This document shows, in pieces, positions 3,963 to 24,703 of a stretch of 53,344 nt of DNA. The stretch is from a virus. The notes beneath the pieces are model-generated. The model did no database searches. It had not been told where the DNA came from and worked only from the letters and a program-made list of their open reading frames with translations. Position 1 is the first letter of the stretch; every line of letters begins with the position of its first letter. The stretch covers positions 1 to 53,344 of the IMG/VR virus record IMGVR_UViG_3300030329_003045, one strand, 5' to 3'. The position numbers were made by a program, and so were the translations under genes.

Positions 3963-4181
3963 ATGGCAACTAAAACAATCAAATTTCTACAAGGTGGCGG
4001 CTTTGTGGAAAGACAAACTAACGCTGATACTGTTGAACAATTAAGAAATGAATTTCCAGATGACATAACTGCGAATTCATCTGTTGCTGTTAATGGAGTA
4101 TCTGTAACTAATACACACGAAGTAAATGAAGGTGATATTGTTGCAGCTGTTAATAACAATAAATCTGGTGGTGATCAGTAG
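3963..4181 (+). CDS. Ubiquitin-like beta-grasp protein (Ubl)
   Basis: 72 aa, the size of a stand-alone Ubl. Seen: an N-terminal beta hairpin (KTIKFLQGGGFVERQT), a helix (TVEQLRNEFP), a strand with the MoaD/ThiS-type phrase VAVNGVSV, then NEGDIVAAV and a Gly-Gly near the end (G69-G70) followed by D71-Q72. Ubls are activated through a C-terminal Gly-Gly. Here two residues would have to be removed first, a job the JAMM peptidase encoded 1.8 kb downstream could do. Context gives the strongest support: E1-like and JAMM genes follow in the same unit. ThiS/MoaD-type sulfur carriers are the alternative, but no thiamin or molybdopterin genes are present. The ribosome binding site is AGGAGG. Confidence 0.75.
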   Translation: MATKTIKFLQGGGFVERQTNADTVEQLRNEFPDDITANSSVAVNGVSVTNTHEVNEGDIVAAVNNNKSGGDQ

Positions 4182-4201
4182 ATAAGTAAATGAATAACTT
4201 T

Positions 4202-4284
4202 AAAGGGAGAGTTACGGCTAAAACCACCATCCGTTAATATACTAGACCACATCGGAGTGCTAGTTAAGCGTGGTCTCTCTCTTT
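4202..4284 (+). ncRNA. Multi-stem intergenic RNA before E2-like gene
   Basis: Closed by a 10-bp helix AAAGGGAGAG/CTCTCTCTTT (4202-4211/4275-4284, one G-U). Inside are ACGG/CCGT (4214-4217/4231-4234) and GACCAC/GTGGTC (4245-4250/4270-4275), giving a three-way junction. It ends 9 bases before the GGAGG of the next gene. It could be a processing or stability element, or a translational regulator. Confidence 0.6.
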
Positions 4285-4302
4285 ATTAACCTTGGAGGGT
4301 AT

Positions 4303-5670
4303 ATGAATAATTATGAAGTAGTATATGTCGACGAACAAGACATTGGACAAGCTATAGATTTTATAGATTTAGATGCTATGGCTGAACACATTTATTTTGG
4401 CCCACAAGCTGAAATAATGGAGAAATTAAATCTATTTAACCAAAGAAATGACTGTAATTTAAGTGTTACTAAAACATTTAGATGGTCACCTGGTACTTAT
4501 GATAAAGTAGCTGAAATGATGATGAGAAGAGTTGGGTTGAGAAGAAGAGCATCTGGTATGTATAGTTATTTATCTAGAGAAGAGTATTATTGGGGTCCAG
4601 GAAGACAGAACATACAAGAAGATCTAAGAGATATGGATAGAATAATTACTAATTTAAGATATCAAGGAGTACAATGGTTAGAAGATCCATCTATATTAAT
4701 TGAAAGAAAAGAGACATTTAAGAATTATATATGTGAAAAATTCGAAGGTCTTCTTGAATTAATAGGAAAAATGGATAAAATAACCGTATTAGGTGTATTA
4801 TTAGAGCAAGATGGTAGTGCTACAACTAGAAGTTCTAGATTAGTTATAAATTTATGCTTACATCCAGGTGAAGTACAAATATATAATGCTAATAATGGAG
4901 GCACTCCAACACATGTGCAGAATCTACCAGCAGAGATGGATTTATTAGTAAGGATAGAAATGTATCCATTACAAGAAATGATAAATGAAAGACTAACTAG
5001 ATTTAATGTTCATACTTATGGAAGAACAGAATCTTATGATGATAGAGGTGCATTATATTTTCCTTATATAGCTAGAACTGATAGACGAAATAGTTGGAAC
5101 TCGCCTGAAGGGTATGGAACTATTTGTTATGGTGATGACTCTACTGATATTAATCGAGCATTAAACAATTTTGAATTACCAGCATATGCTATGTTATTAG
5201 TTAATTGGATGGGTAGATATACTCAAAATACTAATCCATATAATAATATTAAGACATTATATCATGGTGAGCCTAAATGGTTAAATGATGATTATAGAGC
5301 TATATTTGGTACAAATAACTGGGATGCATGTAGATATAGACCATCTGGGCATGATGATTACTGTGATACTAATGAGTGTGCATTAAGACATACTTGTGAA
5401 ATATACAAAACAGCATATCCAGAACCAGTAACGCCAGAGCAAGCCGAACAAATGACCTTGCAATGGGCTACTAGAATGGGTGGAGTTGGATCTAATGCTA
5501 GTCAACCGACAGCTGATCAGACTTGGGTTAATCCAGAAGCTGTTAGAGAAGAGCGTATTAATGCTGAAATGGATGCTGAAGAAGCAGAATTAGAAGCATA
5601 TCAAAGAGCTATGGAAGCTAGTATCGAATCAGAACAAGCTGCTGATAACATTATAGAAGAGGAGGAATAA
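4303..5670 (+). CDS. Possible E2-like (Ubc-fold) conjugation protein
   Basis: Start set at ATG 4303 after TTGGAGGGTAT; a GTG at 4270 is in frame but lies within the RNA stem. 455 aa. I do not recognise the N-terminal 170 residues. The centre has YFPYIAR...N.W..PEGYGTICYGDD (from about residue 252, Cys275), followed by a helical stretch AYAMLLVNWMGRY. This recalls the conserved 'aPy.N....G.iClG' and following Trp-helix of the E2-like PRTRC protein B family, so Cys275 would be the thioester residue. A Cys/His cluster (C343, C354, C359, C365) may bind zinc. The C-terminal 60 residues are acidic and helical. The call leans on its position between the Ubl and the JAMM/E1 genes; sequence support is moderate. 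Confidence 0.45.
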   Translation: MNNYEVVYVDEQDIGQAIDFIDLDAMAEHIYFGPQAEIMEKLNLFNQRNDCNLSVTKTFRWSPGTYDKVAEMMMRRVGLRRRASGMYSYLSREEYYWGPGRQNIQEDLRDMDRIITNLRYQGVQWLEDPSILIERKETFKNYICEKFEGLLELIGKMDKITVLGVLLEQDGSATTRSSRLVINLCLHPGEVQIYNANNGGTPTHVQNLPAEMDLLVRIEMYPLQEMINERLTRFNVHTYGRTESYDDRGALYFPYIARTDRRNSWNSPEGYGTICYGDDSTDINRALNNFELPAYAMLLVNWMGRYTQNTNPYNNIKTLYHGEPKWLNDDYRAIFGTNNWDACRYRPSGHDDYCDTNECALRHTCEIYKTAYPEPVTPEQAEQMTLQWATRMGGVGSNASQPTADQTWVNPEAVREERINAEMDAEEAELEAYQRAMEASIESEQAADNIIEEEE

Positions 5671-5972
5671 TGAGTTTTGTAACAGAAAATAGTATGAAAG
5701 CACATTACAAGAGATTATCTTGTAGAACTATTAAAATAAATGGCGTTAGACTTGATCTTGAGGTTTATAAAACGCCTGATGGTATGACATTTGAGGTAGT
5801 AGAACATGTTCCTGATACAGTATTTGATGATAATTATGTATCAAGACATGAAACACATATCTCTTGGGATAAAATAGTAGACGCTCCAGAAGAGCCTTTA
5901 CCAGAAGAAGATAATGAACCTTTAACAGAAGAAGACGATAGTCTAGGAAGAATGTACGGAGGAGTAAAATAA
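5670..5972 (+). CDS. Unknown protein of the Ubl cassette (100 aa)
   Basis: Its ATG overlaps the stop of the E2-like gene (TAATG), and its stop likewise overlaps the JAMM start, so it is translationally coupled to both. Residues 18-45 look like beta strands (TIKINGVRLDLEVYKTPDG), and residues 70-92 are very acidic (EEPLPEEDNEPLTEEDD). It ends YGGVK, but those Gly codons are the ribosome binding site of the next gene, so the Gly-Gly should not be read as a Ubl tail. It may be a cassette accessory factor or a substrate; no family recognised. Confidence 0.65.
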   Translation: MSFVTENSMKAHYKRLSCRTIKINGVRLDLEVYKTPDGMTFEVVEHVPDTVFDDNYVSRHETHISWDKIVDAPEEPLPEEDNEPLTEEDDSLGRMYGGVK

Positions 5973-6919
5973 TGGAAGTTTATATAGATAAAGAATGTTG
6001 GGATAAGATAATAAATTATGCCAAAGCTGCTTATCATACTGAAAAGTGTGAAATAGGCGGTATGTCAGTAGTAACACAAGATAAAGATGGTGATTGGCTT
6101 ATTCAAGAGCCTGTAATACTAAAACAGGAGATAGGGAGCACTACTTGTGACCTAGATAAAGAGGAATTAGCTAAATATTACACTAAAATGGCTGTAAAAT
6201 ACAATGAAACCAACTTTAGATTCTGTTGGTGGCATAGTCATCACACAATGGGAGCATTTTGGAGTGGTACAGACATATCAAGTATAGATGAATATGGTGA
6301 AGGAGAGTCAGATTTAAGCTTTGCTCTTGTAGTAAACCTTAAAGAAGAGTATAAATGCAGAGTTTCTGTATGGAAACCAGTAGAAATTCATCAAGATGTT
6401 GAACTAAAGATACTTAGTGATAAGCCTGATGTAGAAATACCACTTGATATAGTTACTGAAGTTAAAGAAAAGTGTGAAACTAGATCAATAGTTAATACTG
6501 GATACTCTAAAACTCAAAATGGCAACACAACTTTGCCTTTATGGGACAATACTCGTAATAATTGGGCTAGTTATAAGATGCTAGAAGATGATTTAACCAA
6601 TGTATATGTCCCTAGTCAGCAAGAAATAGCTAATTTTGAGGCTAAATATGAGTATGCATGTATGAAAGCTCAAGAATTTCTACATCAAGTAACAGTTGGT
6701 GGCTGGTCTATGCATAAATTCAAGAAAGCAATCAGAGAAACTAACAAACAAATAGCAAAATATGGTGTTCAAATAGAAGAATTGAACAAAAGAGAGCTAA
6801 AAGAGTTCGTAGAAATGGAGTCAGCTCCATATGAACTTGTAGCTTCTGATGCTAAATTCGCTGATATTGCTGATGCAATGATGGAAATGCACAGTTATAA
6901 TGGAGGATACATGATATGA
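5972..6919 (+). CDS. JAB/MPN-domain (JAMM) isopeptidase
   Basis: 315 aa with a complete JAMM zinc site: Glu27 in CEIGGM, then H88-S-H90, seven residues, S98 and D101 (HxHx7SxxD). JAMM enzymes cleave after the C-terminal Gly-Gly of ubiquitin-like proteins, either maturing the Ubl or removing it from targets. The catalytic domain covers about residues 1-150. The rest (Lys-rich helices at 215-290) is not recognised and could bind the Ubl or E2-like partner. It overlaps the E1 start by 4 bases (ATGA). PRTRC protein A and BilC-type proteins are the closest functional analogues. Phage-tail JAMM peptidases (lambda K) are excluded by the early-gene context. Confidence 0.85.
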   Translation: MEVYIDKECWDKIINYAKAAYHTEKCEIGGMSVVTQDKDGDWLIQEPVILKQEIGSTTCDLDKEELAKYYTKMAVKYNETNFRFCWWHSHHTMGAFWSGTDISSIDEYGEGESDLSFALVVNLKEEYKCRVSVWKPVEIHQDVELKILSDKPDVEIPLDIVTEVKEKCETRSIVNTGYSKTQNGNTTLPLWDNTRNNWASYKMLEDDLTNVYVPSQQEIANFEAKYEYACMKAQEFLHQVTVGGWSMHKFKKAIRETNKQIAKYGVQIEELNKRELKEFVEMESAPYELVASDAKFADIADAMMEMHSYNGGYMI

Positions 6920-7569
6920 TTAACTTAAGAAGTCAAGACATTGCAAATTTAGATAATGTTGAATTCCATATTGTAGGTTGCGGGGCTATTGGAAGCTCCG
7001 TGGCCATGCAATTAGTAAGATTGGGAGCAAATAACTTCTATTTGTATGATTTTGATAAAGTAGAAATACAAAATGTAGGTGTAAGCCAATACAATGAACA
7101 AGATGTAGGGCTGCCTAAAGTAGGTGCTTTAATAAATCATATGAAAAGAATAAATGTGTTGATAAAAGTTCAAGGATATATGTCTAAATTTACAAATTAT
7201 AGAGGTAGTAAAGAAGGTATATTGATTCTAGGTTTAGATAGTATGAAAGCTAGAAAAGATATAGTTGAATTGCTAGTAAATTGCCCTGATAAGCCTAAAA
7301 TAGTAATTGATGGCAGGATGGGAGCTGAACATTATCAGCAATACATATATGATAACATAACTATGGCTAAATATGAGAAAAATTGGTATTCTGATGAGGA
7401 ATCTGATCAAGAACCATGTACTCGTAAAGCTACAAGTTACTGTTCAAATATGAGTGGTAGTTTTATAGCAAACGCTGCAAAGAATATCGTTATGAAACAG
7501 CCATATTTTAAAGAAATTAGTTTCAACTTTTCAACATTAATACTTGATAAAAAGAAATTAGTTTCGTAA
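6916..7569 (+). CDS. ThiF/E1-like Ubl-activating enzyme
   Basis: 217 aa, a minimal Rossmann-type adenylating domain: nucleotide loop G21-C-G-A-I-G26, acidic YDFDKVE (D45, D47), N53, K68 in LPKVGAL and D108 in LGLDSMKAR. These match the ThiF/MoeB/E1 family, which adenylates a Ubl C-terminus. The usual Arg of the N-L-x-R-Q segment is replaced (N53-V-G-V-S-Q), so ATP contacts may differ. Candidate thioester cysteines are C168 and C176 in EPCTRKATSYCSNMSG. The CxxC zinc pairs of MoeB are absent. Length and residues fit the ThiF protein of PRTRC-type cassettes. Last gene of the cassette, followed by a structured gap. Confidence 0.85.
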   Translation: MINLRSQDIANLDNVEFHIVGCGAIGSSVAMQLVRLGANNFYLYDFDKVEIQNVGVSQYNEQDVGLPKVGALINHMKRINVLIKVQGYMSKFTNYRGSKEGILILGLDSMKARKDIVELLVNCPDKPKIVIDGRMGAEHYQQYIYDNITMAKYEKNWYSDEESDQEPCTRKATSYCSNMSGSFIANAAKNIVMKQPYFKEISFNFSTLILDKKKLVS

Positions 7570-7575
7570 GTTCTA

Positions 7576-7639
7576 AGCCCTTCAATCGAGGGGTTCATTC
7601 GCACACAGAAAGAGGTGGAAATTCCCCTCTGCCTCTTTC
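7576..7639 (+). ncRNA. Two-stem intergenic RNA before ERF gene
   Basis: First hairpin AGCCCTTC/GAGGGGTT (7576-7583/7588-7595, 8 bp with G-U pairs, 4-nt loop). Second stem GAAAGAGG/CCTCTTTC (7608-7615/7632-7639), 8 perfect pairs, with an alternative inner pairing AGAGG/CCTCT. It ends 8 bases before TAGGAG of the ERF gene. There is no U-run, so not a standard terminator. Confidence 0.55.
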
Positions 7640-7659
7640 ATTAATATAGGAGAAAATCA

Positions 7660-8163
7660 ATGGATAATATTGATATTTCAAAACAAAATGGTATTGCTAA
7701 GTCTGTATTAGAAGATAAAGCAAAACGTGAAGAAAAAGAGAAATCTTTTGATCAAGCACAAGATAGAAGATCTGATGAATGGAAATCACCTGAAATAGAC
7801 AAATTAGCCGAAGCATTAGCTAAAGCTCAATCTGAAATGGAAGGTGCTAAAAAAGAGAGTGTTAATCCATTCTTTAAGTCTAATTACGCAGATTTACATG
7901 CAGTAATCACATCAGCATTCCCACATTTAAGTAAACACGGACTATCTGTTAGTCAAGGTAACGAAATGATTATGGGTGCTGTGTGTGTAACAACAACATT
8001 AATGCATTCTTCTGGACAATGGTTACGTTCTAAAGTGAAACTTCCATTATCTAAGAAAGATGCTCAAGGCGTAGGAGCTGCTATTACATATGGCAGAAGA
8101 TACGGTTTATCCGCAATTGTAGGCATTGCTCAATATGATGATGATGCTCAATCAATTAGTTAA
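7660..8163 (+). CDS. erf: ERF-family single-strand annealing protein
   Basis: 167 aa. Residues about 45-162 carry the ERF signature: LAEALAKAQSEM, NPFFKSNYADLHAV (contact loop), a central GLSVSQG and VTTTLMHSSGQW, and the C-terminal hallmark AITYGRRYGLSAIVGI followed by DDDAQS. ERF (P22 Erf family) anneals complementary single strands, driving recombination-dependent replication or circularisation. ATG follows TAGGAGAAAATCA. The SSB-like gene lies 17 bases downstream, a pairing often seen in phages and consistent with the two working together on single-stranded DNA. Confidence 0.92.
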   Translation: MDNIDISKQNGIAKSVLEDKAKREEKEKSFDQAQDRRSDEWKSPEIDKLAEALAKAQSEMEGAKKESVNPFFKSNYADLHAVITSAFPHLSKHGLSVSQGNEMIMGAVCVTTTLMHSSGQWLRSKVKLPLSKKDAQGVGAAITYGRRYGLSAIVGIAQYDDDAQSIS

Positions 8164-8180: not shown

Positions 8181-8717
8181 ATGGTTAGAACATTAACTGT
8201 TAAAACAGGTGGTGGATCTAGTTTTTCAACTGGATGGCACACCAAGCTTATATCAAAAGCTGAATATGGTGACTTCAATGGTACTAAATATCTAGACGTA
8301 TGGTTTGATGACTTTCCTGAGTCGTTAAATATGCGAGTATATGAGAAAAAGAATGCTAATGGCGAAGAATTTGCTATTGGTAATCTATTTAGATATGCTA
8401 ATGCAGGTATTACTAGTGCTTTAGAAGGTGCAAATAACACTAAAGTTATTAAACTGGATGATAGTCCCGAAGCATTAATAGGTAAAAATGTTAATGTGTA
8501 TGTACACAAAGATGGTAAATATTCAAGAGTATTAAATCAATGTGCTCCAACTGAATTTGAAAACGTAGTAGAGAAATTCTCTGCTGATGATGTTCAGTAT
8601 TGGAAGGACAGAGCTGAGAAATACTTTAAAGAATATGTACAGCCTAAATTAGAAAAGAAATTAGATGATGTCGTTGACACTTCTGATTCCTCCGAGAGTG
8701 ACGATATACCATTCTAG
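8181..8717 (+). CDS. Single-stranded DNA-binding protein, SSB-like
   Basis: 178 aa; ATG after AAGGAGAACACAA. The N-terminal 120 residues look beta-rich (KYLDVWFDDF, GKNVNVYVHKDGKYSRVLN). The C-terminus is acidic (DVVDTSDSSESDD) and ends DDIPF, the typical SSB tip that recruits replication and repair partners. I cannot see a clear OB-fold signature by eye. The acidic tip and position next to ERF make the SSB role likely. The alternative is a related phage replication protein with the same tail. Confidence 0.75.
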   Translation: MVRTLTVKTGGGSSFSTGWHTKLISKAEYGDFNGTKYLDVWFDDFPESLNMRVYEKKNANGEEFAIGNLFRYANAGITSALEGANNTKVIKLDDSPEALIGKNVNVYVHKDGKYSRVLNQCAPTEFENVVEKFSADDVQYWKDRAEKYFKEYVQPKLEKKLDDVVDTSDSSESDDIPF

Positions 8718-8852: not shown

Positions 8853-9068
8853 ATGAGAGCAACAGAATTTATGCATTTTATTAATATAAGTCCTAAAGAG
8901 CTAAAATTAGGACAAAACTTGAGAGGAGATGATTATACCCATATGACTATAAGAATGAGAGTAAAAAGAGCAAGGTATGAGCATCAAACTGATCTTAGAA
9001 AACGAGAAAAAGAAGCTGAAAAAGCTGCTGAAGAAATTAGAAAGTATTTTAGGAGGAAAAAGAAATGA
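8853..9068 (+). CDS. Hypothetical basic helical protein (71 aa)
   Basis: ATG at 8853 has AAAGGAGGATAT ahead of it; a longer in-frame GTG start at 8772 would run through the RNA stem and is rejected. The N-terminal 30 residues are mixed; residues about 30-71 are one charged helix ending RKYFRRKKK. It overlaps the primase start by 4 bases (ATGA), so translation is coupled. It might be a small partner of the primase-helicase or a DNA-binding peptide; no family recognised. Confidence 0.65.
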   Translation: MRATEFMHFINISPKELKLGQNLRGDDYTHMTIRMRVKRARYEHQTDLRKREKEAEKAAEEIRKYFRRKKK

Positions 9069-10822
9069 CAGAGCTATATAAAGAGTTCGCATTAGGAGTA
9101 AATAATAGACATAACTTCCAAGCAGTAAATAAAGTTTCTGACTGGATGGGTACAGATAGCGATACCTTTATGTCTTTATATGATTATGATGAGTATGTAG
9201 TAGAATTTTATGCTAAGAATAAGTCTTTATCAGGATATGATGGATTAATATATATGCCTGATGAGTTTATATTAGATGTAGATGGTGAAAGTGTATGGGA
9301 GGCATCTCAAAAGACTGCAGCATTACTTATACGTTTAGATGAACTATTTGTTCCATACTATGTATACTTTAGTGGTAGAGGATTCCATATACATATATCA
9401 GAAACAGCATTTAAATGGAGACCTAGTAAGAACTTACACATAAGAGTGAAAGAAGAACTTACTAAACATGGTATATTTGAATATGCTGATCCATCTGTTA
9501 CTGATAAATCTAGATTAATAAGGATACCTAATACTTTAAATACTAAATCTGGACTATGGAAGGTACCATTTCCTCAAAAAGCATTATATGAGAATAGTGT
9601 GTTAGAGAGAACTATTAACAAATGGTGTACAAAGCCTAGAGAACTAGAATTAGAACATGCATTAGAATGTAATGAAGTATTTGATGTATTTGATAAAGAA
9701 GAAGTTAAGGAACAAACGCCAGTTAAGATTAAAAGCACTAGAGACCCTGTAAATACTACATGTATACAGAAAATGATGGATGGTGCACCTCATGGTAAGC
9801 GTCATATGGTAGCTCTTAGAATAGCATCTTACTTAAGATGGAACTTTCCAGAGAATATTGTACGTTTAATCATGGAAGATTGGCGTATAAAGGTCAGTAA
9901 TGAAGCACAAAGTGAGTTTAAAGCTGAAGAAATGGAAGGTATAATAGAAGGTTGTTATACTGGACATGATGGACAAGGCTACAGATATGGTGCTGATGAC
10001 CCTGTTATAAAGTTTTATTGCAATTCTAGATGTACATTACATAGAGGGGCTAAAGCTGAAAATATGATGGATTCTAGTAGTATGGAGAACGAACTTATCA
10101 ATTTCTATGCTCAAGATCTTAAACCTATCAACTTAGGTGAAGCTTATGGGCAAGATTTCCCTGTATATCCAGGTGAAACAGTTATAATCCAGGCTCCACC
10201 AGCTAGTATGAAGACTATGTTACTACAAAATTGGGCTAATTACTTCAAGAAACAGACATATTTTGTTGAAATGGAGATGTCACCAAGACAAATATGGTCT
10301 AGATTTGTACAAATTGAGATGGGTTGGGATGAAAAACAACTAGCAGAACACTATAAGCAAATGAAAAATGGTATGGACAAGCGTTTTGAGTGGTTAACTG
10401 TTGATTATTCAGCGCCATATGCGCAGGAATTAGAGACAAGAATCACTAGCCTACCCATTAAGCCAGAAATAGTAATTGTTGACCATTTGGGGCTATTTAA
10501 GAGCAAACAGAAGGATAACAATATGAAAGTTGAGGAAGCATCCCAAGCCATTATGGAACTAGCAGTAAGACAAAACGTGATCGTCTTTGCTGTTAGTGAG
10601 GTAAGTAAATCAGCCTTTAAAGAAGGTATGGATATATCTTCGTCTAGAGGTTCATTCAGAATAGCTTATAATGCTAATAAAGTGATTTCAATTAACCCGT
10701 TCAAGAATAAAGAAACAGGTTTAGTAGAGATGTTAGATATTAAATCTGATAAGAATAGAGAGAAAGAACACTTATATGCAAGATTAAGCGTAAATAATGT
10801 TAGGATAGAAAAATGCGAATAA
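9065..10822 (+). CDS. AEP primase fused to RecA/DnaB-type helicase
   Basis: 585 aa, a phage replication fusion. N-terminal half: archaeo-eukaryotic primase signs FILDVDG (D71, D73), YFSGRGFHIHIS (S103, H108, H110), and SRLIRIPNTLNTKSG (150-163) with nearby acidic D142/D147 as third metal ligand. Residues 240-330 look like a PriCT-type helical linker plus FYCNSRCTLH, a possible zinc site. C-terminal half: P-loop APPASMKT (377-384), keeping Lys383-Thr384 but lacking both usual glycines, and Walker B EIVIVDHLGLF (D473), as in replicative helicases. It would prime and unwind the fork. ATG after AGGAGGAAAAAGAA. Confidence 0.85.
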   Translation: MTELYKEFALGVNNRHNFQAVNKVSDWMGTDSDTFMSLYDYDEYVVEFYAKNKSLSGYDGLIYMPDEFILDVDGESVWEASQKTAALLIRLDELFVPYYVYFSGRGFHIHISETAFKWRPSKNLHIRVKEELTKHGIFEYADPSVTDKSRLIRIPNTLNTKSGLWKVPFPQKALYENSVLERTINKWCTKPRELELEHALECNEVFDVFDKEEVKEQTPVKIKSTRDPVNTTCIQKMMDGAPHGKRHMVALRIASYLRWNFPENIVRLIMEDWRIKVSNEAQSEFKAEEMEGIIEGCYTGHDGQGYRYGADDPVIKFYCNSRCTLHRGAKAENMMDSSSMENELINFYAQDLKPINLGEAYGQDFPVYPGETVIIQAPPASMKTMLLQNWANYFKKQTYFVEMEMSPRQIWSRFVQIEMGWDEKQLAEHYKQMKNGMDKRFEWLTVDYSAPYAQELETRITSLPIKPEIVIVDHLGLFKSKQKDNNMKVEEASQAIMELAVRQNVIVFAVSEVSKSAFKEGMDISSSRGSFRIAYNANKVISINPFKNKETGLVEMLDIKSDKNREKEHLYARLSVNNVRIEKCE

Positions 10823-15409: not shown

Positions 15410-18400
15410 CTAACAAATTTTTCCTCCTGATTCAATATCATGATACCTATCTCTTAAATCAGCAGGTTTTGTATGTCTATTAATAACCCTACCTTTGACC
15501 GTTGGAACGGACGTATTATCTGGGCCTTTCTCTAAAACAACTCTATTTCTAGTAGTATTTGTCCTTTTATCTAATTGCATATCCAATAAAGTAGATGAAT
15601 AGAATATATCTAAATATCTAGATAAGGATTTTACTGGATTAGCAAGTTCTCCTAAATTTTTATAATCAATACCAATAGTTTGTGAACTTTCCCATTCAGG
15701 AACATTAGGTTTCTTCTTGCCAGTAAAGGCAAGTTGAACTTGTTTCATCAATCTTTTAGCAAACCCAGCATCACCTCCATAATCAGTCTCAATAATTCTT
15801 TCATTATTTAAAGTCCAATTCAAAATAGTCTTCTGCAAATGTAAATCAGTTTTAAATGTAGGAATATATTGATTGTCTTTACCTATAGCATAACTCTCTA
15901 CTAATTGAGGTTGTAGTAAATATCTTAAAATCAAATCAACAGGATCAATATTTGTGTGTACTTGTGGGACCCATTTATCTAAGAAGTTCTTAATATCTAT
16001 ACCTTCTCTTAAAGCCTGCATCTCATAAATATCTTTACTTAAAACCCTATTAGTTAGAGACTCTTTTATTGCGCCTCTATACCCTGTACTTATTTTGAAT
16101 CTTAAGGCTCTTGCATCAGCTGTAAATTGTACCCAATTATCCATATGAGCGCTCGGAGACATAACCTCATCTCTGGTTACTTCAAATAAAGCTCTACTCC
16201 ATCTCATTTCATTTTCACTAAGATTAACCATTTTTTTAGGTCTAGTATCTATAATATAAGTCATCCCTTTATGTGTACGAATATTATCCCTTATATTACT
16301 CTTAGTATAATAACCTAAGAACTTAAGTTGATTATGCGATATATAATTCTCATCAGTTTTTCCGTGATTTAGATTACCTTCTTTACCTTCTTTATTAAGT
16401 TTGTTTATCTCAGTAACATCTACATCGCCTTTTATTGCATATATTGCAACCCTATCTCTCTTTGCTGCCTTTAAAACATTTTTAATTTTAATCTGACCAT
16501 TCTTCTTTCCAACAATAATTTGATTTTTAGGGTCTCTGATAACCATATCTCTAGCTAGCTGAACATCCATTATATCCATAGCTTGTTTTAAATTGGCTAA
16601 TCTATGTTGAAGTTTTTGTATCTTATTAGGATTTGCAAATGGTTCATTCATAAAATAATCAAATGAATTAATAACGTCATCGTGCTGTTTTTCGAGCAAG
16701 TTTCTTAATATACCATTATTCATTTGTTTCCTATACCTTTTTGGATCTGTCTGGCCAAAAGATTTTAAATTCAAAGCAAATTCATATTCTCCAGTAGCTG
16801 TTCTTCCTGTTAATATTTCAACAGGATCTTGTCCAAAGGCTCTAATAACTTCTACAAAATTCTCAATTCTATCAACAAAAATTCCAGCCTTTTGAAAATT
16901 CTTACCATTATCTAAACTTCTTAATCCTTCAAAATTAGTAGTAAACCAAGCTTTATTTTGATTTAAATCATAAATAGTTCTACCGCCTATAGACATAAAG
17001 AAAGGATTATTATCTGTTTTATCAGATAAAGCATCAATAGTAGGGACATTTTCAAATCTAAATCTTATTTTACCTAAAGTAACTGGTTCTCCAGTATATA
17101 TTTTTCTATATATCTGCTTTCTTGTAGCCTCATTTTTTACAAAATCCATATAATCTTTACCATAAAACATATCAACATACTCACTAAGCATCAAATCAGC
17201 TTCAGCTTTCTTACCTATGGTTCTATAGTAACTAATTCTATTCATCATTCTTTTACTTAAATATCTTGTAGGATTTAAAAAGAACTCAGACATCCTTCCA
17301 TATATATCTTTTATCTCTCTAGCTTCAGGATTTCTACTACCTGCTTCATCATATACGTCATTTTGGACCATATTTGCCTTTTTTAGCAACCTTACTACCT
17401 CAAAGAACATCTCCTTCTCTAATGTATTATTCTTTCCAAAATTAGGGTGATCTTTACCAAAAACGTTTACATCATCTACCGCATATTTATTAAATATATC
17501 GTCAGTTTCTCCTCTTTTCTTTAATTGCTGAGCTTTGTCTTTGTAATTTTTAGGGGTTCCAAAGAATAAAAAGTCCATTAAATCTGCCTGAGCTCTCATT
17601 ATTCTATGAATACCGCCATGAATATCTACAGAATTCTGCATAGTATCATAAAATTTACTTAACCATTTCCATTCAGGACTATCCAAGGACAATTTATCCT
17701 CATTAGAAAATTTCTTTAAAAGGTCCTTACCATCTAATTGCATTCCTAACTTATCAAGCCAAGATAATGCGTTCCTTATACCAACAACTTGACCTATAGC
17801 CATTTTTGCTTGAGATAATTTACTAGCATAACTGTGAAAACCAACATCAGTAGCTATTTCACCAGCTTTTCCACCATCTCCTATACCAAATATATTTATA
17901 TAATTTTCTTGACCAATAACATCTTGAACATCAAACATTCTGAAATCATCTTTCTTTCCATTCTGTCTAGCAAAAGCTTTTAATATTCCTTCTGGAAGTT
18001 TTTGATGCATATAAAAATGGTCACCATCATTATCACGTTGTAAAACAGTACGTAAATCATGCACATTTATTTCAGCTAAACCATTCATTTGTTTTAATAC
18101 TTTTCCTACTCTTAATATAACCTTATCATGTCCTAGAGCTGGTATAGCATGTCCTAACATACCAAAAGCTAACTTTAATTCTTGAGCATCTGTTATAGCC
18201 CTTTTTGTTAATTTTACTACTTTACCATTTTTTGTTATTGTATTTCCATCCATCAATCGAATAACATCAGAGTAATTTAATCCGTGTTTTTGTACCTTTT
18301 TATTAATCTCATTTAAAGTAACCTCAATACGTTTCTGCCTAGACTTGAAAGATTTAGAATCCATATTATAACCTTTTTTAAATAAATCACCCTCATATTT

Positions 18401-21400
18401 CTTACTACCAGTTGCACCATCCCAAGTCTCTATATCATGCCCTTTGTGCATTTTTATATGGTCATAAAATGGACTTTCATAAATAAACTTATTACCGTTC
18501 CATCTAACGATAACATCAATTCCATTATGGTCTCTAAATATAAAGGTCTCATCAACAATATTAGATACTCCATCATGTTTACCTAAAAGTCTTCTACTTT
18601 GATTTCTATTTATAGATGTCTCTCCATACTGTATAGTAGTTCTATTTTTATTAAATCTATCAATATGCCCTGCACGCATTTCTGTAAACTTAGCAAAAAT
18701 TGGAACAGCAAGATCAGAATTTACATTAGGAACTATAAAATTATCCTCTCCACCACGAACATGAGCTTGTTTTAAATCCTTATAATTCTGACTTCTCATT
18801 AATCTCTTTATTGCAGGCATTATTATAGGACTAGAAGGGCTAACACCGTACTCAAATACAAGCCTAGCTAAACCTTGATCTCCTAAGTTAAGTGGATTTC
18901 CTTCTGCTTCATTTATCCCATACAACCACTTAGTATAACCTCCAGGATCTTGTTCTATACCGCCCCATTCATTAGCTATTTGAAGAAACTTGTCTTGAAA
19001 TTTCATCCATTGCATTGCTTCTTTCATAACTGTTGGACTTTGAAAATCAAATATAGAAGGAGATATTACTCCTCCTTTAGCATTTTTAGATACAAATGAT
19101 ATGCCTATAGATTTAATAGGTATAATCATTCTATTTTGATCTTGAGCCATATGTAGTCTATCAAGACCTTTAGAAACATCGGTAGGTTTTAAATCTCTAT
19201 TAGTTATAGGTGTTTTACCAGTAAATGATTTAGCAGATTCAGAACCAATAATAATATCAGCTCCTTTAGGCATATATTGCGCTATATCTGGATGGTATAT
19301 TAGAAAACCTTTACCTAACATTTGATTATCTCCAGTAGCAAATATAATAGTTTTTGCACCATTAGGTTTATTTAAGAAATTATCAATATTTTCACCCTTA
19401 TGAGCCATAACAAGCCTCATAAAGTCTAAAGAAGCAAATTTAGCGCCATCAAATAATGAATTATCTAAGCTTTTTAAATTCTGTAAGTTTTCTTGATTTT
19501 GTAATAAAACACCTTGTAATATTTTATTCTGAACTTTATTTACATTTTTTGCAATCTGCGCATTTACATCGCTAATTTTTGACTCAATTTGTCTTTGAGT
19601 TATACCTTGAATATTTAATGGATGATTAATATCTCCCTTAACAGTTGACTCATCAAACACAACAGTGTCATGACCATCTTGTTTTAAAGCCTTTAAAGCA
19701 GCATCTCTAACCTTTTTATTGGGATGGCCCATAACACGTGCAAGTTTAGTTCCTGGAATATTTTCTGTAGATACTATCCAATTTAGAACTCTTTTACTCA
19801 TAGGTTGAGTAGTACCACCATCTGTTAGGTTTCCTCTTTTAAATATATTCATCTGTATTTTCTGAAGATTAGCTTTATCTCCAGCAGTCCAATCGCCTAG
19901 AAATTGATCAAACCCTTGTCTACCACCTTGAATATCAATATAAGGTAACATTAATTTTAGTTCAACTAAATGTCTAGCCCCAACATCTTCTGGTTTAGTC
20001 TTATCTCTTAATTGTCCAAATATATTCCTAAAGTTATCAAGCTCTTTATTTTTATTAGCATCTTTCAATCTTTTCTCAGTAGCTACAAACCAACTCTCAA
20101 AATCATTATTTAAATTCTCAATATTTTCTTTGGTTCTCGCAAATAAAACTCTATTTTTAGGTGATACTCTAACATAATAAAAGAAATCTTTAATATTTTC
20201 TTGCTTCAATAAAGAGGCAACTTCACTTTCAGATAACTCATAAGTCTCTGCTAATTTTCTTAATACCTCTTTATTAGCAGCAGATTCTCTTATAGAATTA
20301 TTTATAATCTTTTGAACTTCAACAGGATTTGATATTAACTGATCAAGACTTCCTGATCTTAATTTGCCTGCTATCTCAACATTAATACCATCGTCTAAAT
20401 AAATTACTTTTAATTTCTTATCACCAAAATAAGTTCTACCTGGATAAGTCACTGATGGAGTATCGTTATTAAATAAAGTTATAGCTCTTTTACCTTCACC
20501 ATAACCTATTATTTTAACTGTAGGTACAGATTGTTGATTCTCTATATAACTTAATATTTCTATTGCATGTCTCTCTTTGAACTGTCTATATAGTGCTACT
20601 CTTTCACTAGATGAAAGTGGTTGACCATTGCTATCGGTTCTCTGATTAATATGGTTAAGTATATAATCATTAAATGCTTTTACATCATCAGCTAATAAGG
20701 CTGCTTTGAACCCTTCATCTATTTTATTCTTTTTATCAACTAATCCGTACTCTCTTAAAACCTCAATAGGAGTCTTATGTCTTTCATGCATAGCCCTACC
20801 TTCATCTTGAGATTTTCTAATTAAAGACATTTCCTCATTTAATACATGGTCAGGATTATTTAATATAACTCTTTTATTAATTTCTTTATTTATTTCCTTA
20901 AATAATTCAACTGCCTCTCCAAATAATCCTCTTTCATTAACTTGTTCTATAACCTCAGATAACGATCTTTTTTGCTTATTAACGTCCTTAGTAAATAAAA
21001 CATTCCAATTATTTACAAGTTTATCCATAACAGCCTGAAAATCATTCTCTCCTAACCCATAACCTGCTTTACCCTCTAAAGCTAGATTTTCTATTTTTAC
21101 AATCAAATTATTTAGATGATTTAATCCTTGATATTCTCTTTTAAATATATCTGCAACTCTATTTTGTAGTGGCTCTAATATAGCTTCACGAACTCCCCAT
21201 CTATCTCCTTCTTGATCAAATTTATCCCTTTGTTCTTGAGTTAGGAGCTTCTTAATAGGATAAGTCCATTTAGATGTTTGTTTGCTAATATTACTCTTTA
21301 ATTCATTTAAAGTAATAATCATTTCATCAACATCTTTTTCAGTAGCGGTTCTATCTTTACCTTCAGCATTTGGTCTTTTAGCAGCTTTAGAAAAAGCATC

Positions 21401-24400
21401 TAATTCAGCAATTATAGATTCTATCTCCTTTATAGGATCTTTAACAGTTACCTCTTTTTCAGGATCTAATGAGTCTATAATATTGGTTATTTTAGCTTGA
21501 ATTGAGTTTAACTTAGCAGGAGCACCTCCATCAAGATTATATGCCTTTTCTAGTGCCGTTTTAGCCTTTCCCATAAGGTCCATAAGAGCATCATTACCTA
21601 AAAATTTATATACTCTCGCATAATCTTGTATATCAATACCTTCTGTAAGTAATGTTCCATCATCATGAACAGGTATTATATCAGTCTCTTTAACAGTATC
21701 TCCAAGAACATCTTTTAAAGATTTTCTACCTTTTAACATAAGTTGTATTTCTCCTTGAGAAAATCCTTCATCTAAAAGATATTGCTTTAAAGCTTCTTCT
21801 GATGGAATCTGAAACTTTCCATCTCTAAGAACACCTAATCTTTTACTTTGCGCATAATGAGCAGCTTTAAGGGCTCTTGAATCTAACCCTATATTATGAT
21901 ATATTCTATCTAAGTAAGCTTCACCTACTTTACCTTTAAAGTCAGCTTGAAATTCACGTGGCAATGCTTTAAATAAAGATATAAAAGAATCATTAGCAAC
22001 CTGAAGATCTGCTCTTTCAATCTTTCTATTAGGAGATTTTGTAGTTTGTCCTCCTAAATGTACTTTTCTTAAGTCAAATAGAGGCTTTAAAGTATGCAAT
22101 ATTAAGTCAGCTTCTTCTTTTACTTTACTTTCAGGAGTACCTTCTTTTGCGTCTCTAACATATTCTTCGATAACTCTTTTATATTCATTTATATCAGCAT
22201 GATACTTACCATCTATCATAAATATTTTATCAAGAAGTGTAGTTAAATCTTTATCTTTTACATTCTTTGATTTACCAGTAATAATATCAAACAATCTTTC
22301 ATTAGTAGCTACAGCCTTAGCTCCAGTATAAAACTTCATAAATTGATTACTATCAGGCATAATAAACTTACCTTTATTAGCAAAAGTTAATGAAAGTTCG
22401 CTCATATTTTTCTCTATAACTTCAGACACTCTAGCTTTTAACTGCTCAACATCCATATTATTTGCCTTAGCAATCCATTCCATAGTTCTTTCTGCCTTTA
22501 CTCCTGGCTGTATACGTGAAGCATCACCGTTGTTACGAAAAATATCTAAAACTCTATTTATATTATGTATCATGCCAAGATCAACACCATCTTCACCAAC
22601 AGATCTTGTTTCTGCATAAGTAATTTTACCATCTGAAGATACACTAATGTCAAATCCTAATTCATTTAATTCTGCAAACATCCTTTTATAAAGATTCATA
22701 GCTTTATTTAAAGGTTCTCCAGTCATTCTAATCATAGCATGAAACCATGCATCTGTACCTTTTTGACCTAAGGTCTGAATTTCCCCTGTACCCTTATCAA
22801 CACCTATAGATATTTCTCTAATATTGTTAGCAATTTTATTTATAGTTCCCTCAGATAGGAATAAAATACGGTCACTTAAAGATTTCGCATCTGGATTCTT
22901 TGTGATATTCATAATATCATACATATCAGCAAATTGTTGAACTAGTTTTAAATCAGGATTGTCAGCGCTATGCTTTCCAGTTGGATTTTTCTCTCCACCC
23001 TCTAAACCCTTATCAAAAGCGGTTAGTATTTTTTGACCTGTTTCAGAACCTGCTAGATGTTCACCTGTAGCAAATCCCTCTCCGTCCTTCCATTGCTTGA
23101 ATCTGAACAACATTTTTGCTCCATCGGCATCTACCCCTAGAATACGCATTGCCTCTGTATATGGCTTAAAATCAGCGAAATACTGCCTTTTATTCTTATG
23201 CCCCCATGCACCTCTACCTTTAACCATCATAAATGACATCATCATATGTGCACCAAGTTCTGAACTATCCATGTCACTCCAGGCATTTTTATCTAATACC
23301 CAAGGATTCATTACAAGAGTACCTGCAGCCATTCTTGGAAGAGACTTTCCTAAATCTGCTAAGTACTTTGGACCCCATTTACCAAGCATTTCACTAGAAA
23401 CTTGCTTATTTATCTTATTTAAAAGAACTTTAGTATGTTCAACATTCATTGTTCCGTTCTTTATTCTAGCTAATATATCATCAGCACCTTTATAAATTTC
23501 TTTTGTTTTACCTTTTCCTACAGTCCACCATGCTGTTCCTAGTTTATTTGAATTCCATACTGATCTTTTGCCTGAAGGAGATACCATTAATCTTAATAGG
23601 TTATTAACAACATCATCTCCATGTTCTGCTTGAATCTTACCATAATCTATATTTTTATATCTACCAAAATAAGCTTTAAATCCTGTAGTTAGATTATCAT
23701 TACCACCTCCAGGAAGAAGTCTAATTAAAGGAAAAGCTAAAGCCATTTTACCTGAATGGCTTAATGTCTCCATAGGGTCAAAATGTTCTCCATAAGCGTG
23801 AGATTTTACAGCACCAGAAATCAATCCATGAGCAGTCATCATAGCCATATCTTGAGTAGCCATACCTAGATATTTTGTTACACCACTTCTAACTCTACCA
23901 GGAGCAGCGCCACCTAACGCTCTTGCAGTCCACTCAGCAATATCATCTACATAATGTCCTGCAGCTAAATCATCAACCCATCTTCCAGCTAAATTAGTAG
24001 CATCTAGTTTAGTTAATTCAATTCCATGCTCTTTGAAAGCTCTAGAGATTGCACTTCCACCAGTACCTACTAAATTTTCTTTAGCCTCATCTAAAGCTCT
24101 ACCTTGGCTACGTAAATTCTTAATCCAACCAACGGTTAAATCATTTTTTGAAGTTTTTTGTATAGCAGCATAAACATCATCTCCAAACCCTTTAATTGCA
24201 TCATCTACAGATATACCTTTTGCTTTAGCAATTTCTTCTGCTTTTTCGATAATTCTATTAGCGGTTGGAGCGTCAAAGTTTTTAGTTATAGATTTTCTAG
24301 TTATATTATCAGCAACATCTTTAGCAGCTTTACCAACAAATTTATTCGCACCTAATCTAGTAACAGCTCTTCCAGCTCTAGCCATTTGACCAAATGCACC

Positions 24401-24703
24401 AAAGGGTAGAAATAACCCTAAACCTTCACCCATGATCATTCCAGCTCTCTCAGCGCCAGACTTCTCTTCCCAAGGAGTATCAGCATAAGGATTAATAAAA
24501 TCAGAAACTCCCCAAGTAACAGCAGAAGCTGCGCCCCAAAGAGTTGAACCTAGAAAGTCTAGTAAAGACCCAGAATCTCTCTCAATAGTATCAAAACTAA
24601 AAGCCCCTTCAGGAACATAACTGCCTGCATAGGGGTTAGTGTATAAATTAGGTCTTGTACTATTTGGAGAGGCTATATTATAGAAATCTCTTGATATTGC
24701 CAT
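15410..24703 (-). CDS. Giant virion protein with DxDGD RNA polymerase
   Basis: 3097 aa, 17% of the window. Residues 2224-2228 are D-N-D-G-D in LQRDNDGDHFYMHQKLPEGI, the metal-binding DxDGD of two-barrel RNA polymerases (compare the beta-prime NADFDGD..VH). About 350 residues upstream is IPIKSIGISFVSKNAKGGVI, then Ser (K1864, K1873, K1876), like the basic GRHGNKGVIS barrel of the beta subunit; the spacing fits single-chain polymerases such as YonO and QDE-1. A segment ILRVGKVLK...GLAEINVHDL precedes the DxDGD. The N-terminus (about 50-110) is Gly/Ala-rich and hydrophobic, as in ejected proteins. By analogy with crAss-like and P23-45 phages, it would be packaged and injected to transcribe early genes. 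I do not recognise other domains. Confidence 0.7.
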   Translation of the reverse strand: MAISRDFYNIASPNSTRPNLYTNPYAGSYVPEGAFSFDTIERDSGSLLDFLGSTLWGAASAVTWGVSDFINPYADTPWEEKSGAERAGMIMGEGLGLFLPFGAFGQMARAGRAVTRLGANKFVGKAAKDVADNITRKSITKNFDAPTANRIIEKAEEIAKAKGISVDDAIKGFGDDVYAAIQKTSKNDLTVGWIKNLRSQGRALDEAKENLVGTGGSAISRAFKEHGIELTKLDATNLAGRWVDDLAAGHYVDDIAEWTARALGGAAPGRVRSGVTKYLGMATQDMAMMTAHGLISGAVKSHAYGEHFDPMETLSHSGKMALAFPLIRLLPGGGNDNLTTGFKAYFGRYKNIDYGKIQAEHGDDVVNNLLRLMVSPSGKRSVWNSNKLGTAWWTVGKGKTKEIYKGADDILARIKNGTMNVEHTKVLLNKINKQVSSEMLGKWGPKYLADLGKSLPRMAAGTLVMNPWVLDKNAWSDMDSSELGAHMMMSFMMVKGRGAWGHKNKRQYFADFKPYTEAMRILGVDADGAKMLFRFKQWKDGEGFATGEHLAGSETGQKILTAFDKGLEGGEKNPTGKHSADNPDLKLVQQFADMYDIMNITKNPDAKSLSDRILFLSEGTINKIANNIREISIGVDKGTGEIQTLGQKGTDAWFHAMIRMTGEPLNKAMNLYKRMFAELNELGFDISVSSDGKITYAETRSVGEDGVDLGMIHNINRVLDIFRNNGDASRIQPGVKAERTMEWIAKANNMDVEQLKARVSEVIEKNMSELSLTFANKGKFIMPDSNQFMKFYTGAKAVATNERLFDIITGKSKNVKDKDLTTLLDKIFMIDGKYHADINEYKRVIEEYVRDAKEGTPESKVKEEADLILHTLKPLFDLRKVHLGGQTTKSPNRKIERADLQVANDSFISLFKALPREFQADFKGKVGEAYLDRIYHNIGLDSRALKAAHYAQSKRLGVLRDGKFQIPSEEALKQYLLDEGFSQGEIQLMLKGRKSLKDVLGDTVKETDIIPVHDDGTLLTEGIDIQDYARVYKFLGNDALMDLMGKAKTALEKAYNLDGGAPAKLNSIQAKITNIIDSLDPEKEVTVKDPIKEIESIIAELDAFSKAAKRPNAEGKDRTATEKDVDEMIITLNELKSNISKQTSKWTYPIKKLLTQEQRDKFDQEGDRWGVREAILEPLQNRVADIFKREYQGLNHLNNLIVKIENLALEGKAGYGLGENDFQAVMDKLVNNWNVLFTKDVNKQKRSLSEVIEQVNERGLFGEAVELFKEINKEINKRVILNNPDHVLNEEMSLIRKSQDEGRAMHERHKTPIEVLREYGLVDKKNKIDEGFKAALLADDVKAFNDYILNHINQRTDSNGQPLSSSERVALYRQFKERHAIEILSYIENQQSVPTVKIIGYGEGKRAITLFNNDTPSVTYPGRTYFGDKKLKVIYLDDGINVEIAGKLRSGSLDQLISNPVEVQKIINNSIRESAANKEVLRKLAETYELSESEVASLLKQENIKDFFYYVRVSPKNRVLFARTKENIENLNNDFESWFVATEKRLKDANKNKELDNFRNIFGQLRDKTKPEDVGARHLVELKLMLPYIDIQGGRQGFDQFLGDWTAGDKANLQKIQMNIFKRGNLTDGGTTQPMSKRVLNWIVSTENIPGTKLARVMGHPNKKVRDAALKALKQDGHDTVVFDESTVKGDINHPLNIQGITQRQIESKISDVNAQIAKNVNKVQNKILQGVLLQNQENLQNLKSLDNSLFDGAKFASLDFMRLVMAHKGENIDNFLNKPNGAKTIIFATGDNQMLGKGFLIYHPDIAQYMPKGADIIIGSESAKSFTGKTPITNRDLKPTDVSKGLDRLHMAQDQNRMIIPIKSIGISFVSKNAKGGVISPSIFDFQSPTVMKEAMQWMKFQDKFLQIANEWGGIEQDPGGYTKWLYGINEAEGNPLNLGDQGLARLVFEYGVSPSSPIIMPAIKRLMRSQNYKDLKQAHVRGGEDNFIVPNVNSDLAVPIFAKFTEMRAGHIDRFNKNRTTIQYGETSINRNQSRRLLGKHDGVSNIVDETFIFRDHNGIDVIVRWNGNKFIYESPFYDHIKMHKGHDIETWDGATGSKKYEGDLFKKGYNMDSKSFKSRQKRIEVTLNEINKKVQKHGLNYSDVIRLMDGNTITKNGKVVKLTKRAITDAQELKLAFGMLGHAIPALGHDKVILRVGKVLKQMNGLAEINVHDLRTVLQRDNDGDHFYMHQKLPEGILKAFARQNGKKDDFRMFDVQDVIGQENYINIFGIGDGGKAGEIATDVGFHSYASKLSQAKMAIGQVVGIRNALSWLDKLGMQLDGKDLLKKFSNEDKLSLDSPEWKWLSKFYDTMQNSVDIHGGIHRIMRAQADLMDFLFFGTPKNYKDKAQQLKKRGETDDIFNKYAVDDVNVFGKDHPNFGKNNTLEKEMFFEVVRLLKKANMVQNDVYDEAGSRNPEAREIKDIYGRMSEFFLNPTRYLSKRMMNRISYYRTIGKKAEADLMLSEYVDMFYGKDYMDFVKNEATRKQIYRKIYTGEPVTLGKIRFRFENVPTIDALSDKTDNNPFFMSIGGRTIYDLNQNKAWFTTNFEGLRSLDNGKNFQKAGIFVDRIENFVEVIRAFGQDPVEILTGRTATGEYEFALNLKSFGQTDPKRYRKQMNNGILRNLLEKQHDDVINSFDYFMNEPFANPNKIQKLQHRLANLKQAMDIMDVQLARDMVIRDPKNQIIVGKKNGQIKIKNVLKAAKRDRVAIYAIKGDVDVTEINKLNKEGKEGNLNHGKTDENYISHNQLKFLGYYTKSNIRDNIRTHKGMTYIIDTRPKKMVNLSENEMRWSRALFEVTRDEVMSPSAHMDNWVQFTADARALRFKISTGYRGAIKESLTNRVLSKDIYEMQALREGIDIKNFLDKWVPQVHTNIDPVDLILRYLLQPQLVESYAIGKDNQYIPTFKTDLHLQKTILNWTLNNERIIETDYGGDAGFAKRLMKQVQLAFTGKKKPNVPEWESSQTIGIDYKNLGELANPVKSLSRYLDIFYSSTLLDMQLDKRTNTTRNRVVLEKGPDNTSVPTVKGRVINRHTKPADLRDRYHDIESGGKIC

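Follow-up and report, generated by a model that had tools for sequence, protein, structure and literature searches.

Gene content of the locus

The window analysed here, the full length (53,344 nt) of an IMG/VR virus record, carries five open reading frames at positions 3963-7569, all of them found at the place and on the strand (plus) given by the initial annotation. The first (3963..4181) encodes a 72-aa ubiquitin-like (Ubl) protein with a predicted beta-grasp and the C-terminus ...NNNKSGG-DQ; the codons for the invariant G69-G70 and for a putatively removable D-Q tail occupy 4167..4178. The second (4303..5670) encodes a 455-aa E2-like protein and starts with an ATG after GGAGG, the longer mechanical ORF beginning with GTG at 4270. 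Its putative E2 active site, F253-P254-Y-I ... T-I-C275, is located at 5059..5127, and a cluster of four cysteines (C343, C354, C359 and C365) is located at 5329..5397. These genes are followed by a 100-aa accessory ORF (5670..5972), a 315-aa JAMM/JAB metallopeptidase (5972..6919) with its zinc/catalytic motif H88-S-H90-x7-S98-G-T-D101 at 6233..6274, and a 217-aa activating enzyme of the E1/ThiF type (6916..7569), which is stand-alone, lacks a rhodanese domain and has a candidate acyl-acceptor cysteine, C168, in P-C-T-x-K-x-T (7417..7419). Four of the five genes had been described as overlapping or abutting, and this holds for the last four, which are joined by overlaps of 1, 1 and 4 nt, while the Ubl gene is separated from the 455-aa gene by 121 nt.

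Directly downstream and on the same strand are genes for an ERF annealing protein (7660-8163; Pfam ERF, E 3e-24; PHROG Erf-like), a probable SSB identified by a weak PHROG match only (8181-8717; E 0.04) and a primase-helicase (9065-10822; Pfam DnaB_C, E 2e-10; PHROG helicase and primase). No integrase was detected among the window proteins scanned, which represent part of its ORFs. Elsewhere in the window, ARAGORN identified a tRNA with a TTA anticodon, which reads the stop codon TAA, and an apparently long variable arm (1050-1144); this is possibly an ochre suppressor tRNA. The sequence just 5' of it (~900-925) resembles the 3' part of another tRNA. A late protein of 3097 aa (15410-24703) has no Pfam or PHROG match.

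An AlphaFold2 model of the 72-aa protein, built with 14 relatives (pLDDT 81.6), has a beta-grasp with the element order E-E-H-E-E-E. The best PDB match of this model using Foldseek was an archaeal protein, Caldiarchaeum subterraneum ubiquitin (E 5.4e-4, prob 1.0), followed by Mth1743 and then by many ubiquitin, NEDD8, SUMO and MoaD-type proteins; the best Pfam match was ThiS (E 0.0011, below the curated cut-off). K-x-G-G is invariant near the C-terminus of all distinct Ubl sequences listed, and the tail that follows the GG varies from 0 to 60 residues. Such constancy of the GG next to a variable tail would be expected of a precursor that is trimmed at the GG, here by the JAMM peptidase. The modelled fold and the C-terminal Gly-Gly would together place the protein among the ubiquitin-like beta-grasp proteins.

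The 315-aa protein matches PADLOC JAB (E 3e-8) and falls just under the cut-off for Pfam Prok-JAB (E 4e-5). Residue E27, in C-E-I-G-G, corresponds to the usual JAMM glutamate, and the intact HxHx7SxxD reported initially can be read as H88-S-H90-x7-S98-x2-D101 and is kept in 98 of 100 window-type relatives. The glutamate and the motif predict a JAMM/MPN+ peptidase. The 217-aa protein matches Pfam ThiF above the cut-off (E 8e-19), with PDB profile matches to UBA6, UBA5, MccB, MoeB, ThiF and Cap2, and its nucleotide-site residues are invariant; on these sequence features it is assigned to the E1/ThiF superfamily. C168 is kept in every E1 sequence that covers the position (81/81 window-type and 26/26 crAss-type). 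Neither C22 nor C176 is a shared feature of the crAss-type E1s, conservation of C176 being confined to the window type.

Conservation across phage lineages

Searching IMG/VR with the JAMM protein recovered 43 loci, and a search with an E1 alignment recovered 371 relatives, 80 of which were kept. The genes for the Ubl, the 455-aa protein, the JAMM peptidase and the E1 have the same order in all 52 distinct viral contigs spanning this part of the genome. The 83 distinct window-type E1 sequences comprise 52 from loci complete for the four core genes and 31 from stored contigs that begin close upstream of E1, with genes cut off or missing accordingly. Where at least 7 kb of upstream sequence was available, the complete set was present in 47/47 window-type and 4/4 crAss-type loci, a tally that contains some overlapping fetches from the same contigs. 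Since the order is shared by 52/52 contigs and dN/dS is below 1 for each gene tested, the cassette is conserved beyond chance. The downstream ERF, SSB-like and primase-helicase neighbours also recur in relatives. The proposal that the phage carries a set of Ubl, E2-like, JAMM and E1 genes in its replication region is therefore upheld, the set being kept as a unit in 52/52 loci.

Of the proteins that are widely present, conservation is highest for the Ubl (median identity 92%, dN/dS about 0.08-0.24) and lowest for the 455-aa protein (median identity 45%, dN/dS 0.27-0.64). The 100-aa ORF is accessory: it is restricted to close relatives, is often absent, is 79-98% identical where present, and had no meaningful match in scans of Pfam, PHROGs, NCBIfam and PADLOC. 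A radical-SAM-like gene (CxxxCxxC) separates the E2-like and JAMM genes of several phages related to that of the window (L011, 2699-3574; L013, 3477-4346; L015, 7044-7919; L018, 2023-2898).

The window E1 matches 76 phage records with up to 34% identity, mostly from crAss-like and Flavobacterium phages, and the best plasmid-borne ThiF matches are weaker (59 bits vs 94 bits for phage). In a phylogenetic tree, the phage E1s group together on one side of a branch that separates them from seven bacterial E1-like proteins (SH-aLRT 96), with long branches. Bacterial genomes scanned with the E1 profile yielded no confirmed relative, under strict patterns that make this no proof of absence.

In crAss001 (Steigviridae) the order is gp79 (Ubl), gp78 (E2-like), gp77 (JAMM) and gp76 (E1), and Flavobacterium phage Fpv1 (ANB40300-40295) has all four genes, with an interrupted JAMM. 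The crAss counterpart had escaped the initial annotation. The E1s of crAss001 and Fpv1 are ~31-34% identical to that of the window. Existing annotations of these crAss and Fpv1 genes are hypothetical protein, metalloprotease and thiamine biosynthesis protein. The JAMM gene is split or interrupted in L049 (Fpv1; 5653-7945), L075 and L077, which suggests a mobile element inside the JAMM gene; the Fpv1 insert is an inverted 249-aa ORF. While the window cassette is adjacent to genes for ERF and a primase-helicase, those of crAss phages and Fpv1 have a primase and a uracil-DNA glycosylase as neighbours. The crAss loci further differ in an extra downstream gene (gp75) and in their virion genes. In crAss001, gp75 is located directly 3' of E1 (L048, 8642-9454); it is conserved in crAss loci and possibly in Fpv1, and its product may be another component of the system in crAss phages. 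We rejected the possibility that the window itself is a crAss phage, as its best terminase, capsid and portal matches included no crAss record.

The Ubls of the two types differ at their C-termini. In contrast to the GG of the window Ubl, crAss Ubls have ...K-S-G with a single Gly, in most cases with Ala and then a C-terminal domain after it; the first domain of gp79, for example, ends K-K-I-K-S-G-A and is followed by another domain. In cr106_1 (L053, 2695-3898) a stand-alone Ubl ends I-K-S-G-K-F, and an HNH endonuclease gene and then the C-terminal domain come after it, an arrangement consistent with cleavage after SG. Between Ubls of the window and crAss types, hhalign gave no significant alignment.

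The 455-aa protein and competing readings

The active site of E2 enzymes reads HPN-[IV]...[IV]-C-L. P254 and C275 of the 455-aa protein are invariant in its family (62/62 sequences), within [HFY]-P-[YF]-[IVL] ... [IV]-C, so that every member has a candidate active-site cysteine after an HPN-like motif. Many relatives read H-P-Y-I/V...V-C-L-D or V-C-M-G-D, as in L141 (HPYI...GTVCLD) and L121 (HPYV...GNVCMGD). Relative to HPN, the Asn is replaced by Tyr or Phe throughout the family and the His by Phe or Tyr in the clade of the window, and P and C are ~10-40 residues apart, a spacing that exceeds that of typical E2s and varies more. The family also has an extra conserved N-terminal region, and C343, C354, C359 and C365 are conserved in 90-97% of the 62 sequences and probably form a zinc site.

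The AlphaFold2 model of the 455-aa protein (pLDDT 78, moderate confidence) consists of a helix, a strand meander, a loop bearing the P...C motif and helices after the Cys, with about six strands before the Cys compared with four for UBC. Foldseek searches of this model against the PDB gave no significant match and no UBC or RWD structure. When the PDB was searched with profiles of the E2-like families, including a domain profile, nothing relevant and no E2 chain was returned, and Pfam, PHROGs, NCBIfam and PADLOC gave no meaningful match to the 455-aa protein. Known E2 families gave no match in any of 14 control genomes, which thus supplied no yardstick for an E2. The initial annotation had staked its reading on a beta-grasp in the 72-aa protein and a UBC fold in the 455-aa protein; the former is supported by the predicted fold and the invariant GG, but Foldseek and profile searches did not confirm the latter.

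In a Foldseek comparison with viral models, the 455-aa model resembles a 435-aa protein of crAss cr128_1 (prob 0.99), a 420-aa protein that its equal length suggests is that of Fpv1 (prob 1.0) and a protein of a crAss-like virus (prob 1.0). The gp78-type proteins have an invariant Y-M-H-S-H-[VIL] ... C-x-G (32/32 sequences) and no counterpart of the window-type cysteine cluster. When E2-like proteins of the window and crAss types were compared using hhalign, the result was not significant; when the alignments were enlarged, the best local match coincided with the Cys motif. We favour an E2-like role for the 455-aa protein, assigned by motif and context and not by fold, because of its invariant P...C motif, its position among the cassette genes and the structural similarity that connects it with its crAss/Flavobacterium phage equivalent.

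Instead of acting as an E2, the 455-aa protein could itself be modified directly by the E1, as in E2-less systems of the SAMP type, and would then be the dedicated acceptor or substrate for the Ubl, or else a replication factor of the phage. Its fast evolution, its additional conserved N-terminal region and cysteine cluster, and the failure of the Foldseek and profile searches to find a UBC fold would all agree with this, but an acceptor does not readily account for a Pro and a Cys that are invariant in an HPN/Cys-like context across the whole family, nor for the invariant H-S-H-[VIL]...C-x-G of the crAss-type proteins, and we consider this reading improbable.

We also give little credence to a sulfur-carrier pathway, in which the E1 would adenylate the Ubl and load it with a thiocarboxylate, the 455-aa protein would use the sulfur on RNA, DNA or a small molecule, and the JAMM peptidase would only mature or recycle the carrier. 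The post-GG tail is variable in length, although some Ubls stop right at the GG in the manner of ThiS and MoaD. The ThiS match of the Ubl is echoed by the best NCBIfam matches of the E1, which are ThiF models (under their cut-offs), but the E1 has no rhodanese domain and no rhodanese, desulfurase or sulfur-assimilation gene was recognised among the neighbours scanned or annotated. JAMM genes adjoining sulfur carriers are already known in bacteria (PMC1779556); here, however, the partner protein has an invariant P...C motif and the cassette is surrounded by replication genes.

A counter-defence role, with JAMM cleavage or decoy Ubl or enzymes disturbing a Bil- or CBASS-type Ubl defence of the host, is very unlikely: the cassette is phage-borne and placed with early genes, and Ubl-type conjugation does occur in bacterial anti-phage defence (PMC10097602), but a decoy or protease alone needs no E1 or E2-like partner, yet both are always present in complete loci, the site is a replication module and not a variable accessory region, and the Ubl, far from evolving fast, is strongly conserved.

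Proposed mechanism and relation to known systems

Taken as a whole, the cassette is probably a self-contained, phage-encoded ubiquitin-like conjugation system. This reading draws directly on the genes and their motifs, the predicted beta-grasp fold, the invariant residues, the obligate co-occurrence and the recurrence in other phages, and from these we infer each of its catalytic steps, the E2 role and the targets. The JAMM peptidase would cut the precursor of the Ubl behind its invariant Gly-Gly (-KSGG|DQ in the window). The stand-alone E1 would adenylate the exposed Gly and then carry the Ubl in thioester linkage at C168, from which the 455-aa protein would receive it on C275, in the HPN-like Pro...Cys site, and pass it to targets. 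The extra domains and cysteine cluster of the 455-aa protein may help target choice, and the JAMM peptidase may also be able to remove the tag. The most likely targets would be phage replication or recombination proteins, or host DNA-handling proteins; replication and recombination targets appear likely because the cassette is constantly found inside the replication module in three phage lineages, a location that points more to replication proteins than to counter-defence. We identified no E3, protease partner or target. It is a bolder proposition, and one that we advance only tentatively, that phages of several lineages, among them the abundant crAss phages of the human gut, perform Ubl conjugation of their own by means of a new E2-like family and tag DNA-replication proteins.

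Viruses that rank among the most abundant in the human gut contain a series of unknown genes that such a system would explain, and the divergent E2-like family would provide material for the study of E2 enzyme origins. Cultured carriers exist (crAss001, DAC15 and Fpv1), which makes the cassette testable at once. The literature searched contained no description of this cassette; most subscription papers lay outside the search and priority is uncertain.

The closest bacterial arrangement is the type 6d operon of Iyer et al. 2006, in which Ubl, E2-like, JAB and E1 are likewise encoded by separate genes and the Ubl is small and stand-alone with a C-terminal Gly (PMC1779556). The window cassette differs from it in its E2-like family and its phage replication context. 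We take the type 6d operon to be the PRTRC set, and the kinship with PRTRC cassettes suggested in the initial annotation did not hold, the scores being far from the curated cut-offs (12.3 vs 101.8 bits for PRTRC_A and 30.6 vs 144.75 bits for PRTRC_ThiF). Among phages, the lambda tail-assembly proteins TAPI and TAPK are a pair of Ubl-like and JAB proteins (PMC1779556). Unlike the window cassette, this pair is without E1 or E2 and belongs to a tail-assembly context.

The antiviral ubiquitination operons known as Bil (BilA-D) combine a Ubl, an E2, a JAB and an E1; by description, the window cassette is set apart from them in being phage-borne and having a single-domain Ubl of 72 aa, and no match under a Bil name appeared in the PADLOC and NCBIfam results. 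In type II CBASS, Cap2 is an E2-E1 fusion and there is no separate Ubl. Cap2/Cap3 and the window have E1 and JAB enzymes in common, and the E1 profile matches Cap2 structures, but we rejected a type II CBASS assignment: the window E1 is stand-alone (217 aa), a Ubl is present and no CD-NTase was found among the neighbours scanned. Prokaryotic ubiquitin-like conjugation has been described in archaea and bacteria and in antiviral operons, and a complete, conserved set within phage replication modules would be its viral version.
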